Of a stretch of DNA of 64,000 nt, positions 31,199 to 55,614 are shown piece after piece; the first letter of the stretch is position 1, and every line of letters starts with the position of its first letter. Origin of the DNA: Leptolyngbya sp. BC1307. Its GTDB lineage: Bacteria; Cyanobacteriota; Cyanobacteriia; Phormidesmidales; Phormidesmidaceae. The position numbers and the translations under genes were made by a program. The notes below the pieces were generated by a model, which searched no databases, was not told the origin of the DNA, and was given only the letters and a program-made list of their open reading frames with translations. The stretch spans positions 124,001 through 188,000 of the forward strand of contig NZ_NRTA01000001.1 of the NCBI RefSeq assembly GCF_002286735.1, in the 5' to 3' direction.

Positions 31199-31216
31199 AA
31201 TAGACTGGTAAAAGAG

Positions 31217-31680
31217 GGTAGAGCTGGACCTAAGCCGGGTTCTGTTCCTCCGGGGCGAGCCCGCAGGGTGGTTATCTATCTGGGACGCCTGTTACCAGAC
31301 GCCTCTAGCGGCGCGCTTTGTCAGAGCCGGTAAAAAGCCAACCGTCGCTCCTTTGGCCTTGCACCCAACCGGGGTTTACCTGGCCAGCACCTCTCGATGC
31401 TGCCGGTGCGCTCTTACCGCACCCTTGCACCCTTACTCGTAAAAGTCAGAAGTCAGAAGTCAGAAGTCAGAAGTAAAAAGGCAGGCTTTAAACTCATCGT
31501 TCATCGTTCATCGTTCATCCTTCCCGTTAGCGGTATGTTTCTGTGGCACTCTCCTCACGGTCACCCGTACTGGGCGTTACCCAGCAAGTTTGGCTTTTAG
31601 GGAGCCCGGACTTTCCTCAGAAATCCAGGTGGAGTTTTGAGGCTCTACCTGATTTCCGCAACCACTGAGCCAGCTCTATA
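31217..31680 (-). ncRNA. rnpB: RNase P RNA (rnpB)
   Basis: The catalytic RNA of RNase P, which matures tRNA 5' ends. On the minus strand the conserved 5' core AGGAAAGTCCGGGCTCCC (31601-31618) is followed by the cyanobacterial CTTGCTGGGTAACGCCCAG-type helix. The 3' end holds ACAGAACCCGGCTTA (31230-31244). Helix P1 is visible: AGAGCTGG at 31677-31670 pairs with CCAGCTCT at 31227-31220. The ends are estimated from P1. A repeat insertion lies in the middle at about 31441-31520. Confidence 0.93.
31441..31520 (-). repeat. Two heptanucleotide tandem repeats inside rnpB
   Basis: On the plus strand 31444-31475 is over four copies of AGTCAGA, and after a short spacer 31497-31519 is three copies of CATCGTT plus a fourth degenerate one. 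These are short tandemly repeated (STRR) heptamers of the type described in cyanobacterial rnpB. They fall within the variable P12-like arm and would be transcribed as part of the RNA. Confidence 0.85.
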
Positions 31681-48361: not shown

Positions 48362-49720
48362 TTATCCGACTATGGCTGCAGCTTGCTGGTTGCAGTTCTC
48401 GATGAGCGGCTCCAGCTCTATCGTCATTAGATGGCCCTGGTCGATTACTTTTTTTCCATGAATAAAGCTGTAGTCTACTGACGGTGGCTGACAAAATATC
48501 AGCGCGGCGACTACGTCGTGATGACTGCCAACCAGCGCAGGCGTGTCGATATTAAACGCAATAAAATCTGCTGACATGCCGGGTGCCAGATAGCCGATGT
48601 CGTCTCGACCTAGTACTCTGGCTCCCCCCCGAGTTGCCACCTCTAACGCTTCACGGGCTGTCATCGCTGCTGCATCGCAGTCTCTCACCCGAGCCACTAA
48701 AAAAGCCGTGCGAGTCTCTTGCAGCAGATTAGAGGCGTCGTTAGAAGCCGCACCATCTACGCCGATGCCGACCGGGACACCTTGCGTGAGCATTTTGCGA
48801 ATAGGGGCAATGCCACTGGCCAGCCGCAGATTGCTACAGGGGCAGTGGGCCACACCAGTGCCGGTTTTAGCGAATTTTTGAATGGCGCGATCGCTGAGCT
48901 GTACGCAGTGGGCGTGCCAGACATCTTCACCCAGCCAACCAACCGATTCGGCGTAGTCGCCTGGCCGTAGACCAAACTTTTCCAGGCTATAGTCAACGTC
49001 GCTTTTGTTCTCTGCTAAATGGGTATGGAGCCGCACGCCCGAATAGGAGCGAGCCATTGCTGCTGACTCTCGCATCAGGTCGGGAGAGACGGTAAAAGGT
49101 GAGCAGGGCGCGAGGACGATGCGGGTCATGGCGTGGCGATCGCTGTCATGATATTGCTCAATCAATCGCAGCGAGTCTTTGAGAATATCCGGCTCTTTTT
49201 CTACCAGCGCATCCGGCGGCAACCCGCCTTGACTTTCCCCCATGCTCATACTGCCCCGGCTAGCGTGGAACCGCAGGCCAATGTCTTGCACAGCGCGAAT
49301 TTCATCGTCGAGAGTACAGTCGTTAGGAAAGAGATAGAGATGATCGCTAGCGGTGGTGCAGCCAGACAGCATGAGCTCGGCAGCGGCCATTTGAGCGCTC
49401 GCGTATATGCCCTCGCTGGTCAGGTTGCTCCAGATCGGGTAGAGCGCTTTTAGCCAGTTAAAGAGATCGCAGTTTTGAGCAGCGGGTACAGCGCGGGTAA
49501 GCGTCTGGAAAAAGTGATGATGGGTGTTGACCAAACCGGGTAAAACAACATGCCGCCCCTGTAAGTCTAAAATCTCATCGGCGGTCGCTGGCAAGGCATC
49601 GGTTGTCCCCACCTGCTCGATAACATGATCTCGAACAAAGAGTGCCCCGTTACCTATCTCTCTGCGTTCGTCATCCATGGTTATTAGCGTATGGATGTTT
49701 TTGACTAAAAGGGTACTCAT
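48362..49720 (-). CDS. 8-oxoguanine deaminase-like amidohydrolase
   Basis: A 452-residue metal-dependent amidohydrolase of the AtzB/TrzN branch. The N-terminal metal site is VNTHHHFFQTLTRAVP (about 64-80), followed by SGCTTASDHLYLFPND, the RGSMSMGESQGGLPPD loop, THLAEN, HCVQLSD and the Asp in GVDGAASNDASN. These match 8-oxoguanine deaminase, which gives urate and ammonia from 8-oxoguanine. Substrate assignment within this branch is difficult. It starts seven bases after the Rieske oxygenase stops, so the two are co-transcribed. Confidence 0.8.
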   Translation of the reverse strand: MSTLLVKNIHTLITMDDERREIGNGALFVRDHVIEQVGTTDALPATADEILDLQGRHVVLPGLVNTHHHFFQTLTRAVPAAQNCDLFNWLKALYPIWSNLTSEGIYASAQMAAAELMLSGCTTASDHLYLFPNDCTLDDEIRAVQDIGLRFHASRGSMSMGESQGGLPPDALVEKEPDILKDSLRLIEQYHDSDRHAMTRIVLAPCSPFTVSPDLMRESAAMARSYSGVRLHTHLAENKSDVDYSLEKFGLRPGDYAESVGWLGEDVWHAHCVQLSDRAIQKFAKTGTGVAHCPCSNLRLASGIAPIRKMLTQGVPVGIGVDGAASNDASNLLQETRTAFLVARVRDCDAAAMTAREALEVATRGGARVLGRDDIGYLAPGMSADFIAFNIDTPALVGSHHDVVAALIFCQPPSVDYSFIHGKKVIDQGHLMTIELEPLIENCNQQAAAIVG

Positions 49721-49727
49721 GGAATGC

Positions 49728-50795
49728 TCATGCTGTATACAGTTTGCTCAGGCCCAGCTCGGCTAACCCTTTGCGATAGGTGATAGAGGTTTGGTCTGCC
49801 TGAATATGAGTTTCTGCTCGCAGATCCAGTGGGAGATCTTCCGGGTATTGGGCTTCTACTATCTCTTTGTCTTCATTAAAAATCTGATAGTTAAATTCGT
49901 AGACAGGTTCTAGTGGTTGGTCTTTGTCAAAGTTGCGACAGAGGGGAGAGAAGACGCGGGTTTTGCGAGCAGAGATAGGAGAGGCGGCATTGAGAATGCA
50001 CAAACGACCTTCGTTGGGAAAACTGACTCTGAGTAACGCACTGAAAGGCAAAAAGACTTCAAACACGCGCAGCCATTCAAAATCATCCGGGGCGCGGTGC
50101 TGTAGCGCCTTGGGAAAGTTGCTGACAGTGCTGAGATAGTTTGCCCGCAGACCGCGCGGGGTAGGTTCAACGTCGTAGCGGGGGACGATGGGGTTGCTGC
50201 GATCGCCAAACGACTCGGCATGAATCCAGGCAAAATGAGCCACATCTAAAAAGCCTTCCATTTGCCGGCCCGCAGCGGCCTCTAGGCTAATGCTATCGGG
50301 CACAATCTGCTGATAGTCGGCGTCTGTCCATTCGGGGAAAAAGGGCAGAGCATCTTCGTCATCAGCGCTGCCTGCTAGCGTTGTCCAGACCAAACCGTAG
50401 GCTTCTTTAACCGGATAGGTTTTTAGACAGAGCTTGCTAGGAATACTGGCCTGCGGATTGGCCGGAATCAGGCTGCACTGGCCGGTGGCATCGTAGTGAA
50501 AGCCGTGGTATTTGCAGATGATCTGGTCGTCTTTGAGATGGCCCATGCTCAGCGGCACGCCCCGGTGCAGGCAGATGTCGTTAGCAACGGAGACACCAGC
50601 GGCGGTGCGCCAGATGACGAGTCGCTGATCGAGCAGGGTAGCGGCAACGGGCTGGTCTTTGACCTCGTGGCTAAAGGCAACCGGGTACCAGAAGGGCGCG
50701 ATCGCAGTCCAGTCAGTCGGAGAAAAGGTGCAGCCTTTGGGGTACACCGCGCTACCATTTTGATTTTTTCTATCTTGTGCGATCGCTGCTGACAT
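49728..50795 (-). CDS. Rieske-type mononuclear iron oxygenase
   Basis: A 355-residue oxygenase. The Rieske cluster is CLHRGVPLSMGHLKDDQIICKYHGFH (Cys-X-His and Cys-X2-His, about 72-100). The mononuclear iron site is DVAHFAWIHAESFGD (about 185-200), with the third Asp/Glu further on. Length and layout resemble single-component N- or O-demethylases rather than aromatic dioxygenases with a beta subunit; no beta subunit, ferredoxin or reductase is adjacent. It is the first gene of the operon with the deaminase and is divergent from the permease gene. Confidence 0.88.
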   Translation of the reverse strand: MSAAIAQDRKNQNGSAVYPKGCTFSPTDWTAIAPFWYPVAFSHEVKDQPVAATLLDQRLVIWRTAAGVSVANDICLHRGVPLSMGHLKDDQIICKYHGFHYDATGQCSLIPANPQASIPSKLCLKTYPVKEAYGLVWTTLAGSADDEDALPFFPEWTDADYQQIVPDSISLEAAAGRQMEGFLDVAHFAWIHAESFGDRSNPIVPRYDVEPTPRGLRANYLSTVSNFPKALQHRAPDDFEWLRVFEVFLPFSALLRVSFPNEGRLCILNAASPISARKTRVFSPLCRNFDKDQPLEPVYEFNYQIFNEDKEIVEAQYPEDLPLDLRAETHIQADQTSITYRKGLAELGLSKLYTA

Positions 50796-50842
50796 GCATT
50801 ACATCTCCATTAAAAAAACAATCATCCCAAAAGCGAGCTAAC

Positions 50843-50864
50843 CGTTTGCCTGCTCAGGCAAACG
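50843..50864. promoter_or_regulatory. Perfect 22-bp palindrome, candidate operator
   Basis: Half-sites CGTTTGCCTG and CAGGCAAACG flank a central CT, with no mismatch. It lies 48 bp upstream of the Rieske gene and 117 bp upstream of the permease gene in the shared spacer. No U tract follows on either strand, so a regulator site is more likely than a terminator. Confidence 0.75.
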
Positions 50865-50980
50865 TCATTTCATCGTGGCCGACCGGCTGCGCTTTGGCTG
50901 TTTCCTCTGTAACGCTTTTCTTAATTGCCTTTACCCAGACCGTTAGAATACGAGATAGCTGTGGCCGTAATGCCGCAGCC

Positions 50981-51955
50981 ATGCAAAAATTATCTCCCAA
51001 CATGACCTCAGATTCATCGCGATCGCCCACAGCTTCTGCAGAGCCACCTTCAGTACCCGATCAGTCTCTATTGCTAGGTGCCGGGCTGATTACGGTCGGC
51101 TTCTTAGCCAATACCATTCAAGGCGCACTGGGGAAAGTCGCGCAGGCGACCATTGGCCCGGGGCAGTTTTTGTGGCTGCTGCTGCTGCTGGCTTTGGGCG
51201 TATTGCTGCCGGTAGAAATCTGGCGGCGAGGTCGCGATTTGCAGGCGGGGCTCAATGCTCAGGTGCTGCCTTACTATTTGCTGCGAGCGGTGTTTGGGCT
51301 GAGCGGCTTTTATCTGTTTATCTGGGCGGCAGGGCTGGGCAGCCTCGTCAGTGCAAATGTGCTGCTGAATACAACGCCAATATTTATCCCAGTCATTGGC
51401 GTGATTGCCCTGAACAAGCAAATTTCGCTGAAGCTATGGGGAGCGATCGCCGTCGGATTTATTGGGCTACTGCTGGTGGTTCAGCCCAATGCTGACTTGC
51501 TGCGCAACCCGGCTAATTTGATTGGCCTCGGAGCCGGGCTCTCAGCCGCCGTCGAATTTCTCACCGTGCGCCGGATTAACCAAACTCAGTCGCCGCTAAG
51601 CCAGACGCTGTACTACTTGCTAATCGGCTCAGCTCTGATGGCACCCGTAGCGCTCTGGCAGTGGCAGCCGATTGATCGAGCGACTCTAGGCTATGTCGTC
51701 GCAGCGGCAGCGGCTTTTCTCACCTTTCAACTGCTGCTAGTGAAAGCCTATCGCTACGCTGAGCCCCATCAGATTGGCGTATTTCAGTACAGCAGCGTGA
51801 TTTTTTCAGCCGTGATCGGCTGGCTGTTTTTTGATGAGATACCGAACGGTGTTTCGCTGATTGGTATGGTATTGATCACGCTCGGGGGCGCGCTGGCGAT
51901 TTATCTGGAGCAAAAACCTCAGGCCGACTTTACCGAAGAACCGACAGGAACTTAA
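50981..51955 (+). CDS. EamA/DMT superfamily permease
   Basis: About 325 residues with ten predicted helices in two EamA repeats (first TVGFLANTIQGALGK, second about residue 180 with AVEFLTVRRINQTQSPL). The open frame begins far upstream, but the ATG at 50981 (or 51002) fits the family; upstream codons overlap the palindromic spacer. DMT proteins export or import small metabolites such as amino acids, purines or sugars. Its divergent location from the Rieske/deaminase operon suggests a related substrate. Confidence 0.88.
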   Translation: MQKLSPNMTSDSSRSPTASAEPPSVPDQSLLLGAGLITVGFLANTIQGALGKVAQATIGPGQFLWLLLLLALGVLLPVEIWRRGRDLQAGLNAQVLPYYLLRAVFGLSGFYLFIWAAGLGSLVSANVLLNTTPIFIPVIGVIALNKQISLKLWGAIAVGFIGLLLVVQPNADLLRNPANLIGLGAGLSAAVEFLTVRRINQTQSPLSQTLYYLLIGSALMAPVALWQWQPIDRATLGYVVAAAAAFLTFQLLLVKAYRYAEPHQIGVFQYSSVIFSAVIGWLFFDEIPNGVSLIGMVLITLGGALAIYLEQKPQADFTEEPTGT

Positions 51956-53387: not shown

Positions 53388-54521
53388 TTAAGCGCGAGTT
53401 AGAAGGTACTGCCCATTCCCGTTATATTCACCGTCGCAGGTGGCAAAGATAGTGCCTAACAACAATAAGTAAAATCGCCATATACGTCGGAATTTAGCAT
53501 AGTCCATGCCGTAGTCAAGGGTCTTGACAGTCTCTTGAGAAGCGTCAAATCGCTCTAGCCAGGCGGTCAGCGTTTTGTGATAGTTCATGCCGTTCATGTA
53601 CCACCGATCTACTGTTTTCAGGTCGCGGTTATGGCTCGGCACTGCGTCGTGGTTCCAATAGCGACCGTGCGGAAAAATATATTTGTGCGTAAAGCCAGAC
53701 GACATGTTGTTGGGAATGCGCACAGTGATGATGTGAATAAAGACCTTGCCATCATCCTTTAAAAGAGAGGCCAGCTTCTGAAAGGCGTTGGTTAAGTTGC
53801 CAACATGACAAAAAACACCAATTGAGAGAATTTTATCGAACTTTTCGGTAAACTGAGCCTCGTTCAGATCGCCCTCGTGCAGGGTAAATCGCTCTGAGCT
53901 GAGATAGCTTTCTGGATCTTGCATTTTGCGGCGCATATATTCGCACTGCTGATGGCTCAGATTGAGCCCGGTAAACCGCACGTTAGGGAACTTAGACATA
54001 ATGTAGTTGGGCACGCAGCCCCAGCCACAGCCAAAATCCAAAATATTATCACCATCGACAATGCCCAACCGCTCAATCACCTGATCGATCATGTGCATTT
54101 GAGATTCTCTCAGGTCGGTTGCACCGCGCTCCCAAAATCCGGTGCTGTACTTAGGATAAATGACGGGCCAATCGCCTAACATCTGGTTGAGCAGCACTTG
54201 AGGCCGGTCGTACTGCACATCCATTAGCTCACGCGAAGATTCAGCGAGCTGATCAGACTCTTCGAGCACCCATTCATAGGGAGCCAACAAACCGGGAAAA
54301 TGCTGGAACAATACCGGCATAATCGTATGCAAGGCTGCCCGAAAAGCCGCGTCTGGTATCTCTAATCCGTTCACATAGGCTTCGGCTAAGGCCATTTGAG
54401 CTACGTTGAGCGTTTCGGCCATGAGCCGCGTTGCGCCATAGGCACCTGAACTTTTTAGGGACATATCTCCGATGCCGGGGAGATATCGGGAGAGGTTTGG
54501 GGATTGGGTTGTAGAAGTCAT
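53388..54521 (-). CDS. CFA-synthase-like SAM methyltransferase
   Basis: About 377 residues. SAM motif I is ILDFGCGWGCVPNYI (about 155-170). The LNLSHQQCEYMRRK helix and DKILSIGVFCHVG segment are like cyclopropane-fatty-acid synthases, but the Glu of the usual MFEHVG (bicarbonate site) is Cys here, so it may add a methyl to a different acceptor. The internal ATG at 54521 fits the family better than 54653. It lies 190 bp downstream of the desaturase on the same strand. Confidence 0.82.
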   Translation of the reverse strand: MTSTTQSPNLSRYLPGIGDMSLKSSGAYGATRLMAETLNVAQMALAEAYVNGLEIPDAAFRAALHTIMPVLFQHFPGLLAPYEWVLEESDQLAESSRELMDVQYDRPQVLLNQMLGDWPVIYPKYSTGFWERGATDLRESQMHMIDQVIERLGIVDGDNILDFGCGWGCVPNYIMSKFPNVRFTGLNLSHQQCEYMRRKMQDPESYLSSERFTLHEGDLNEAQFTEKFDKILSIGVFCHVGNLTNAFQKLASLLKDDGKVFIHIITVRIPNNMSSGFTHKYIFPHGRYWNHDAVPSHNRDLKTVDRWYMNGMNYHKTLTAWLERFDASQETVKTLDYGMDYAKFRRIWRFYLLLLGTIFATCDGEYNGNGQYLLTRA

Positions 54522-54711
54522 TTCGGTTTTTCTCAGCTCACGCCCGCTAAACCATATTCCGGTTGAAAACCAGAAGTTTTTCATAGAAAAACTACGCAGT
54601 TCTGAAGGTAGGCCAGGTTTATAGGCCAAGCAAAGAGATCTCCTTGCTATCAACTGTAATCTTTGAGATGACTCAGTGTAGCAAGTGTTTTAGTGGGTGA
54701 TGGTTAAGAAT

Positions 54712-55614
54712 TTACCGAGTGTTAAGGGCGGCTGACAGGTTTGTATGGGGTGAGCCTTGAGGTCGGGCGCGGCTCAGGAGTTCTGGTTCGGTGGGCATTC
54801 TCAGCTTTGAGGCCAGCTTGAGCGACTCCAGCATTTTTATGAAGATAAATGTGGGATCGACCAGGTAAACGACCCGGTTGTTACGAATAGTAATACCGTG
54901 CCGACTCGAAGACTGAAAAGCATGATGGAGATTATGCCAACCTTCGCCCAGAGTGAGAAAAGCAACGAGTCCACTGTTGCGGCTGTGGTCATCGGTGATA
55001 AATGGCTGCTCGCCGAAGAGATGAGCCAGGGAATTGACAGTTTGGACGCCGTGAAAAAGCAAAGTAGTGCTCAGGAAAAAAGCGCCGAGGTATTCTAAAC
55101 CGCCCATCGCGTATGACAAGGCTCCAAGCGCGATGGTGGGCACGAAGTGCAGGCGGTCAATGATTTGGAGAACGCGATCGCTCTCTACATCGGCAGGCAG
55201 CTTCTCTGGGAAAAACTGAGGCGCTAGCAGCCACCCGCCCTGCGACCAGTAAAACCCCTTCCAACCCTGAAACGGCGTATAGGGAGAATGCGGATCGAGG
55301 GGTTGCTCTACGTGGAGATGATGGGCCATGTGATGCGCTTTCCACCAGCTTGGCCCCATTTGCCCGGCTGATGCGCCAATGATGCAGCCGATCCATAGCA
55401 GGGGGGTAGGTGCCTGGTAGCTCTTGTGAGTGAGCAGTCGGTGATAGATGGCAGTGGTACCTAGCATCCGAATCAGGTACAGAAACACAATCCAGCTGAT
55501 AGCACCTACCGAGAGGCCGGTGATGAAAACGAGGAGTGAACCTAAGTGGCTAGCGATGATCAGCGCTGGCCCCATTAAGTAAAAAATAATCGTGATTAGA
55601 GAATATTGCTTCAT
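54712..55614 (-). CDS. Acyl-lipid/acyl-CoA desaturase (DesC-type fold)
   Basis: A 300-residue membrane di-iron desaturase. Histidine boxes: HRLLTH (about 58-63), HHMAHH in the second cluster (about 95-100) and HNLHH (about 222-226). Helices flank these. The second box departs from the usual HRxHH. The WSQGGWLLAP and DPHSPYTPF segments fit the delta-9 type. It probably puts a double bond in a fatty acyl chain. It leads the CFA-like methyltransferase in a probable operon. The Arg/Pro-rich tail has no homology I know. Confidence 0.9.
   Translation of the reverse strand: MKQYSLITIIFYLMGPALIIASHLGSLLVFITGLSVGAISWIVFLYLIRMLGTTAIYHRLLTHKSYQAPTPLLWIGCIIGASAGQMGPSWWKAHHMAHHLHVEQPLDPHSPYTPFQGWKGFYWSQGGWLLAPQFFPEKLPADVESDRVLQIIDRLHFVPTIALGALSYAMGGLEYLGAFFLSTTLLFHGVQTVNSLAHLFGEQPFITDDHSRNSGLVAFLTLGEGWHNLHHAFQSSSRHGITIRNNRVVYLVDPTFIFIKMLESLKLASKLRMPTEPELLSRARPQGSPHTNLSAALNTR

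Follow-up and report, generated by a model that had tools for sequence, protein, structure and literature searches.

A Rieske oxygenase gene and an amidohydrolase gene stand side by side on the minus strand of a 64,000-nucleotide stretch of Leptolyngbya sp. BC1307 (contig NZ_NRTA01000001.1, positions 124,001 to 188,000; hereafter the window). We propose, with a probability of about 0.72, that they form a two-gene unit of purine catabolism leading to urate, in which the oxygenase would be a cyanobacterial HpxD converting xanthine into urate and the amidohydrolase would convert 8-oxoguanine into the same product. Four things read from the sequences carry this proposal: the families to which both proteins belong, the presence of the other pathway genes in the genome (G000), the lack of a match in it to the molybdenum hydroxylase family and the linkage of oxygenase and deaminase genes in some relatives.

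Identity of the oxygenase and the amidohydrolase

The closest kin of the window oxygenase are proteins named HpxD. Among the tblastn matches listed, HpxD proteins annotated on plasmids align with it at 47-57% identity over 94-99% of the length (57% for Paraburkholderia, 49% for Klebsiella and 47% for Pantoea), and the plasmid records describe them as the HpxD subunit of a "molybdenum cofactor-independent xanthine hydroxylase". These relatives score 346-405 bits among the 60 matches listed, versus 141 bits for NdmA and 129 bits for NdmB in a search of PDB sequences, where SxtDIOX, SxtT and NdmA came out best at 141-144 bits. The preliminary description of this DNA had brought up methylxanthine N-dealkylation of the NdmA/NdmB type as a possibility for the oxygenase. 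NdmA and NdmB are indeed Rieske oxygenases of similar length with purine substrates, but since the window protein is far closer to HpxD, methylxanthine N-dealkylation is not the best reading and we rejected an N-demethylase identity on similarity. Moreover, Klebsiella HpxD used as query yields the five structures that also head the list of the window protein, ranked almost identically, and the presence of NdmA and NdmB among them is therefore normal for an HpxD. The wider expectation of purine chemistry with an oxidation step is upheld.

None of the curated NCBIfam models matched Klebsiella HpxD or the window protein as an HpxD, so that no HpxD cut-off could be applied. A tree was built of 38 rows, namely the window protein, 18 close and four more distant cyanobacterial oxygenases, nine HpxD-type proteins from plasmids and six other Rieske oxygenases. 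One branch (support 71/92) splits the six other Rieske oxygenases from the window and HpxD-type rows, in a tree in which most deep forks are open, the outgroup branches are very long and NdmA and NdmB are not among the rows. Over the 32 HpxD-type rows (19 + 4 + 9), 82 positions are invariant; they include C75, H77, C94 and H97, which we take to be the CxH/CxxH motif of the Rieske centre, and D184, H187 and H192, presumably the D-x2-H-x4-H motif of the mononuclear iron. By sequence, the oxygenase is an HpxD relative and plausibly a molybdenum-independent purine C8 hydroxylase acting on xanthine to give urate.

The amidohydrolase matches the curated 8-oxoguanine deaminase model NF006055 over residues 2-451 with 678.2 bits, the cut-off being 532, in agreement with the family given in the preliminary description. 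It also aligns end to end with PDB entries 3hpa (616 bits) and 7ww2 (601 bits), of which the latter bears the molecule name 8-oxoguanine deaminase and the former is named amidohydrolase. It thus resembles the known 8-oxoguanine deaminases over its full length and differs from them in its setting, since it lies behind an oxygenase gene, whereas in other cyanobacteria such genes occur in clusters with HpxO and hydroxyisourate (HIU) hydrolase. According to PMC5270733 and PMC6186785, uric acid is the product of 8-oxoguanine deamination, and we propose this reaction, with release of ammonia, for the window protein. Relatives of the enzyme act also on guanine and isocytosine, and two of them converted guanine into xanthine (PMC6186785); by analogy with these two, the amidohydrolase might also be active on guanine and could then supply the oxygenase with xanthine.

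Pathway genes, linkage and co-occurrence

The genome carries candidates for the steps on both sides of the reaction that we assign to the oxygenase. A guanine deaminase gene (594 bits) lies on contig 4 beside a purine permease gene, HpxO (604 bits, cut-off 500) is encoded on contig 5, adjoining HIU hydrolase and a PbuX-type permease, and OHCU decarboxylase is encoded on contig 45. Guanine to xanthine and urate to allantoin would in this way be provided for, and xanthine to urate would be the step without its usual enzyme: the molybdenum-hydroxylase domain PF02738 has no match in G000, nor does XdhB at E 1e-60. Since the flanking steps are encoded and the molybdenum-hydroxylase match is missing, the HpxD-like oxygenase is the obvious candidate for this step. 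The assembly counts 222 contigs with a completeness rating of 99.99%, which makes an overlooked xanthine dehydrogenase (XDH) unlikely but possible. The preliminary description had remarked that no urate gene is adjacent; this is true of the window, but the urate pathway is found elsewhere in the genome, and in one related locus (L008) OHCU decarboxylase directly follows the deaminase. As a side observation, the OHCU decarboxylase of G000 (L074:5526-9990, G000:C45) is near genes for a LysR-type regulator and for DUF1028-like and asparagine-synthase-like proteins, all named by eye.

The Klebsiella hpx island (NZ_CP091979), arranged as uraH-uraD-NCS2 permease-hpxO-hpxR-hpxD-hpxE, has an HpxD-type oxygenase as the window has, and G000 also possesses HpxO, HIU hydrolase, OHCU decarboxylase and an NCS2 permease. 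In contrast to the island, the window neighbours of the oxygenase include neither an HpxE-like reductase nor an HpxR-like regulator, the other urate genes of G000 are on other contigs and the partner of the oxygenase is an 8-oxoguanine deaminase. XdhAB (TIGR02963/TIGR02965), encoded about 6 kb from HpxO in genome G404 (L172), would fill the same step from xanthine to urate but is an unrelated molybdenum-cofactor enzyme.

A scan with the single oxygenase protein gave 37 cyanobacterial loci (68-81% identity, several ending at contig ends), which were searched by tblastn (E 1e-5, 45 bits) with genes of the window. A purine deaminase adjoins the oxygenase in nine of them, in varying orders and orientations. 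It is an 8-oxoguanine deaminase in three (L007, L008 and L038) and a guanine deaminase in six (L009, L016, L027, in two frames, L032, L037 and L043), and guanine deaminase scores above its curated cut-off in all six genomes of the latter kind. In L032 (genome G403), OHCU decarboxylase is on the same stretch as the oxygenase, together with a phosphoribosyltransferase. Of the three-gene synteny suggested by the preliminary description, the link between oxygenase and deaminase is thus found in some cyanobacteria, but the divergent EamA permease, suggested as the uptake partner, gave no hit in any of the 37 loci, and synteny does not support it as a member of the module; a Xan_ur_permease-type gene is present instead in four of them (assigned by clustering, one of the four having been tested with Pfam). 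A more distant oxygenase (58% identity) at L108 (G011:C1:245000-264000) follows an NMT1-like ABC transporter set, recognised by eye, and a cytosine-deaminase-type amidohydrolase (NF005759, 648 bits), which makes another amidohydrolase adjoining an HpxD-like oxygenase.

The oxygenase and the deaminase both tend to occur with HpxO. At E 1e-60, the oxygenase is present in eight of 386 genomes of the phylum (four of the eight have only a 58-61% relative), HpxO in 25 and both in seven; HpxO is therefore found in 7/8 oxygenase genomes versus 18/378 others (Fisher p 1.5e-8, unadjusted for kinship). The 8-oxoguanine deaminase is present in 23 of the 386, 13 of which have HpxO versus 12 of the 363 without the deaminase; within the class of the window's own organism, HpxO accompanies the deaminase in 13/14 genomes. 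The deaminase even lies inside clusters of HpxO and HIU hydrolase at L159, L161 and L084, the last including OHCU decarboxylase, and it adjoins a guanine deaminase at L158. We further compared 32 distinct oxygenase genomes with 20 oxygenase-negative controls listed in the 386-genome scan, which were not matched for kinship. The 32 consist of the genomes of 28 of the 37 loci, less L023, plus the eight positives of the 386-genome scan, less three taken as duplicates for their identical match coordinates; in four of the 32 the more distant oxygenase (58-61%) is the only one. OHCU decarboxylase was detected in 28/32 oxygenase genomes versus 4/20 controls, HpxO above cut-off likewise in 28/32 versus 4/20, and 8-oxoguanine deaminase above cut-off in 20/32 versus 2/20. 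Twelve oxygenase genomes, G000 among them, have HpxO and no match to PF02738.

Three further observations were made around the HpxO and OHCU decarboxylase genes. At L089 (G399:C42:18500-36500) and L086 (G402), NMT1-like transporter genes, named by eye, adjoin OHCU decarboxylase and HpxO. L089 also has, among these genes, a 300-amino-acid protein that by eye resembles 2-oxoglutarate oxygenases and could be an alternative oxidase for purines. In G005 (C78:44413-48425), about 1.3 kb from OHCU decarboxylase, there is a molybdenum hydroxylase of 302 bits, far under the XdhB cut-off, which is possibly a non-standard xanthine-oxidising enzyme.

Proposed route, electron supply and rival readings

For the substrate, the cotranscription of the two genes, the electron donor and the physiological use we infer the following scheme. 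Guanine would be turned into xanthine by the guanine deaminase at G000:C4, and perhaps also by the amidohydrolase adjacent to the oxygenase. The Rieske oxygenase would then stand in for a molybdenum xanthine dehydrogenase and, using O2 and two electrons, form urate by hydroxylating C8 of xanthine, while 8-oxoguanine, that is oxidised guanine, would be converted by the adjacent deaminase into urate and ammonia. HpxO, HIU hydrolase and OHCU decarboxylase would finally take urate to allantoin, toward the release of nitrogen.

Several facts weigh against this scheme. A reductase of the HpxE kind is missing among the window genes beside the oxygenase. Klebsiella HpxE gave at best 55 bits and 27% identity (in G386) against the eight oxygenase genomes, and partial, weak matches (E 3e-9) against G000, whereas the reductases that adjoin hpxD-type genes on plasmids of Pantoea, Paracoccus and Komagataeibacter reach 205-360 bits. 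As the partner was not found, we file the window protein as HpxD-like and not as an HpxDE system, and for the same reason the likely donor is ferredoxin with a general reductase; the electrons would probably come from there, perhaps from photosynthetic ferredoxin. HpxD-type oxygenases are also encoded without an annotated reductase alongside on plasmids of Pseudomonas, Rhizobium and Acinetobacter, and those of Paraburkholderia (L176) and Caballeronia (L181) are followed by a rubredoxin and a flavin adenine dinucleotide-dependent oxidoreductase, not by HpxE. The linkage, too, is partial. In 28 of the 37 loci, some of them truncated at the end of a contig, no full deaminase stands at the oxygenase, and the neighbour clusters that recur most often (F2 in 10 loci, F3 in eight and F4, by eye an MFS-like transporter, in seven) are of non-purine genes. 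The 8-oxoguanine deaminase of L008 is interrupted (L008:5102-6313), and L025 (7120-7467) holds only a 116-residue deaminase-matching stretch near the oxygenase, which suggests that either the deaminase has been lost or the assembly is in error. The distribution gives further counterexamples: PF02738 is present in 17/32 oxygenase genomes (8/20 controls), XDH scores above cut-off in four of the seven genomes with both HpxO and the oxygenase, and four of the 32 oxygenase genomes (G346, G389, G406 and G408) have no OHCU decarboxylase and no HpxO above cut-off, HpxO being split over two frames in G408. In eleven of the 25 genomes with HpxO, both this oxygenase and an XDH above cut-off are missing. 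Other routes to urate therefore exist, a missing XDH does not demand the oxygenase, and we gave up the general rule that HpxD is to be expected wherever XDH is absent. Lastly, the sources disagree on the reaction of HpxD itself: the record name speaks of a xanthine hydroxylase, and PMC7373994 places hpxDE in the oxidation of hypoxanthine to xanthine as well as of xanthine to urate.

The adjacency of the two genes also lends itself to a route that bypasses xanthine, in which C8 hydroxylation of guanine by the oxygenase would yield 8-oxoguanine, left for the deaminase to turn into urate. In the window and in L007, L008 and L038 the two genes adjoin each other, with the oxygenase leading, and genome G411 has the oxygenase, 8-oxoguanine deaminase, HpxO and OHCU decarboxylase, with guanine deaminase and molybdenum hydroxylase unmatched. 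However, the oxygenase of G411 is split over two frames, and G000 does encode a guanine deaminase. Furthermore, oxygenases paired with an 8-oxoguanine deaminase (three rows) and those paired with a guanine deaminase (six rows) show one fixed difference, V50 versus I, and as it is single and conservative we rejected the idea that a residue change sets the two kinds of pairing apart; in the tree, L009, paired with a guanine deaminase, falls within the window's fork and the other five outside it. Both points argue for one substrate, most likely xanthine, in both pairing types, and a guanine-first oxygenase seems unlikely to us. We consider slightly less probable again the same order of reactions driven by photosynthetic ferredoxin, with guanine oxidised to 8-oxoguanine and deaminated last. 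If this version were true, 8-oxoguanine would be a normal metabolic intermediate, beyond a mere product of damage, and the oxidation of purines, needing no molybdenum, would be coupled to light. One might also follow the hypoxanthine reaction given for hpxDE in PMC7373994 and let the oxygenase act at C2 of hypoxanthine to form xanthine, as reported for Klebsiella HpxDE, urate then coming only from 8-oxoguanine or import. Yet the deaminases next to the oxygenase in relatives are of the guanine and 8-oxoguanine types, with xanthine and urate as products, and nothing known would consume the xanthine made by guanine deaminase in a genome lacking a molybdenum-hydroxylase match; we find this reading improbable.

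N-demethylation of methylated purines followed by deamination could appeal to NdmA and NdmB being among the best solved-structure matches, but it has against it the much higher scores of the HpxD relatives, the almost equal ranking of structures by Klebsiella HpxD and the fact that the neighbour genes in relatives belong to families of unmethylated purines, and we give it very little credence. Just as little credence goes to the view that the genes are neighbours by chance, the deaminase scavenging 8-oxoguanine from damage and the oxygenase having an unrelated role. The many loci without a full deaminase neighbour would fit it, as would the absence of any match in the 37 loci for seven further window genes tested, EamA included; still, the pairing recurs in different arrangements with two kinds of deaminase, and oxygenase and 8-oxoguanine deaminase each co-occur with HpxO.

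The conversion of xanthine into urate by an HpxD-like oxygenase therefore remains our preferred reading, and would provide a candidate enzyme for this step in cyanobacteria that have urate-degrading genes and no match to molybdenum xanthine dehydrogenase. The kind of enzyme is known; new are its occurrence in a cyanobacterium, its pairing with an 8-oxoguanine deaminase and the missing HpxE-like reductase. The novelty is only moderate, because comparable gene sets have already been mentioned for other bacteria: PMC7373994 describes one riboswitch class over gene sets with hpxD-like dioxygenases and amidohydrolases resembling 8-hydroxyguanine or guanine deaminases. Judged by titles and the beginnings of abstracts, we found no description of a cyanobacterial HpxD in the literature searched, and we do not claim its absence from print. 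Through its co-occurrence with HpxO, 8-oxoguanine deaminase becomes linked with urate catabolism in the phylum, and generically named Rieske genes of Leptolyngbya-type cyanobacteria gain a concrete and testable function. Should the oxygenase use ferredoxin, the recovery of purine nitrogen would depend on light and iron, and not on molybdenum.

Gene layout and the divergent spacer

Table 1. Positions of the oxygenase and amidohydrolase genes and of the features next to them in the window
Feature	Position	Strand	Description
Amidohydrolase (8-oxoguanine deaminase) gene	48362-49720	minus	452 amino acids; Pfam Amidohydro_1
Intergenic gap, oxygenase/amidohydrolase	49721-49727	minus	7 bases; from the sequence
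Rieske oxygenase (HpxD-like) gene	49728-50795	minus	355 amino acids; Pfam Rieske and VanA_C
Inverted repeat in the divergent spacer	50843-50864	none	two 10-bp arms, 2-base centre; possible operator
EamA-family permease gene, divergent	50981-51955	plus	324 amino acids; Pfam EamA

Coordinates and Pfam matches bear out the arrangement given in the preliminary description, with the oxygenase and the amidohydrolase seven bases apart and the permease divergent (Table 1). The short gap is consistent with cotranscription of the two genes, and the same distance of 7 bases separates oxygenase and deaminase in L038. An alternative start of the EamA frame, GTG at 50777, would overlap the start of the oxygenase; the ATG at 50981 is, in our judgement of the sequence, the likelier start and would leave a spacer of 185 bases.

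The palindrome of this spacer, CGTTTGCCTGCTCAGGCAAACG, had been called perfect. An inverted repeat is present and its 10-bp arms are perfect, but the 2-base centre makes it nearly and not strictly so. A comparable repeat (arms of at least 9 bp, gap of at most 10) arose in 11 of 2000 Markov-resampled spacers, which makes it mildly unusual. A single copy of the pattern TTTGCCT N2-6 AGGCAAA is present in the window, and none in the genome's three stretches with HpxO, OHCU decarboxylase and guanine deaminase; the OHCU decarboxylase has another inverted repeat upstream, with 8-bp arms. In the six of the 37 loci that were checked (L007, L008, L009, L010, L012 and L016), the 260 bases that precede the oxygenase homology showed no inverted repeat (arms of at least 7 bp, gap of at most 10). 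As the palindrome was seen neither in the six relatives nor in the three other purine-gene stretches, its label as an operator is a guess, and we rejected it as an operator shared by purine genes. A xanthine riboswitch (NMT1 motif) was likewise discarded, as Rfam models at gathering scores retrieved only RNase P from the window and from L156, L191, L108, L107 and L089. The RNase P RNA of the window, at 31216-31677, is of the ordinary bacterial class A. At 53388-55614, a gene for a cyclopropane-fatty-acid-synthase-like methyltransferase adjoins a fatty acid desaturase gene on one strand.

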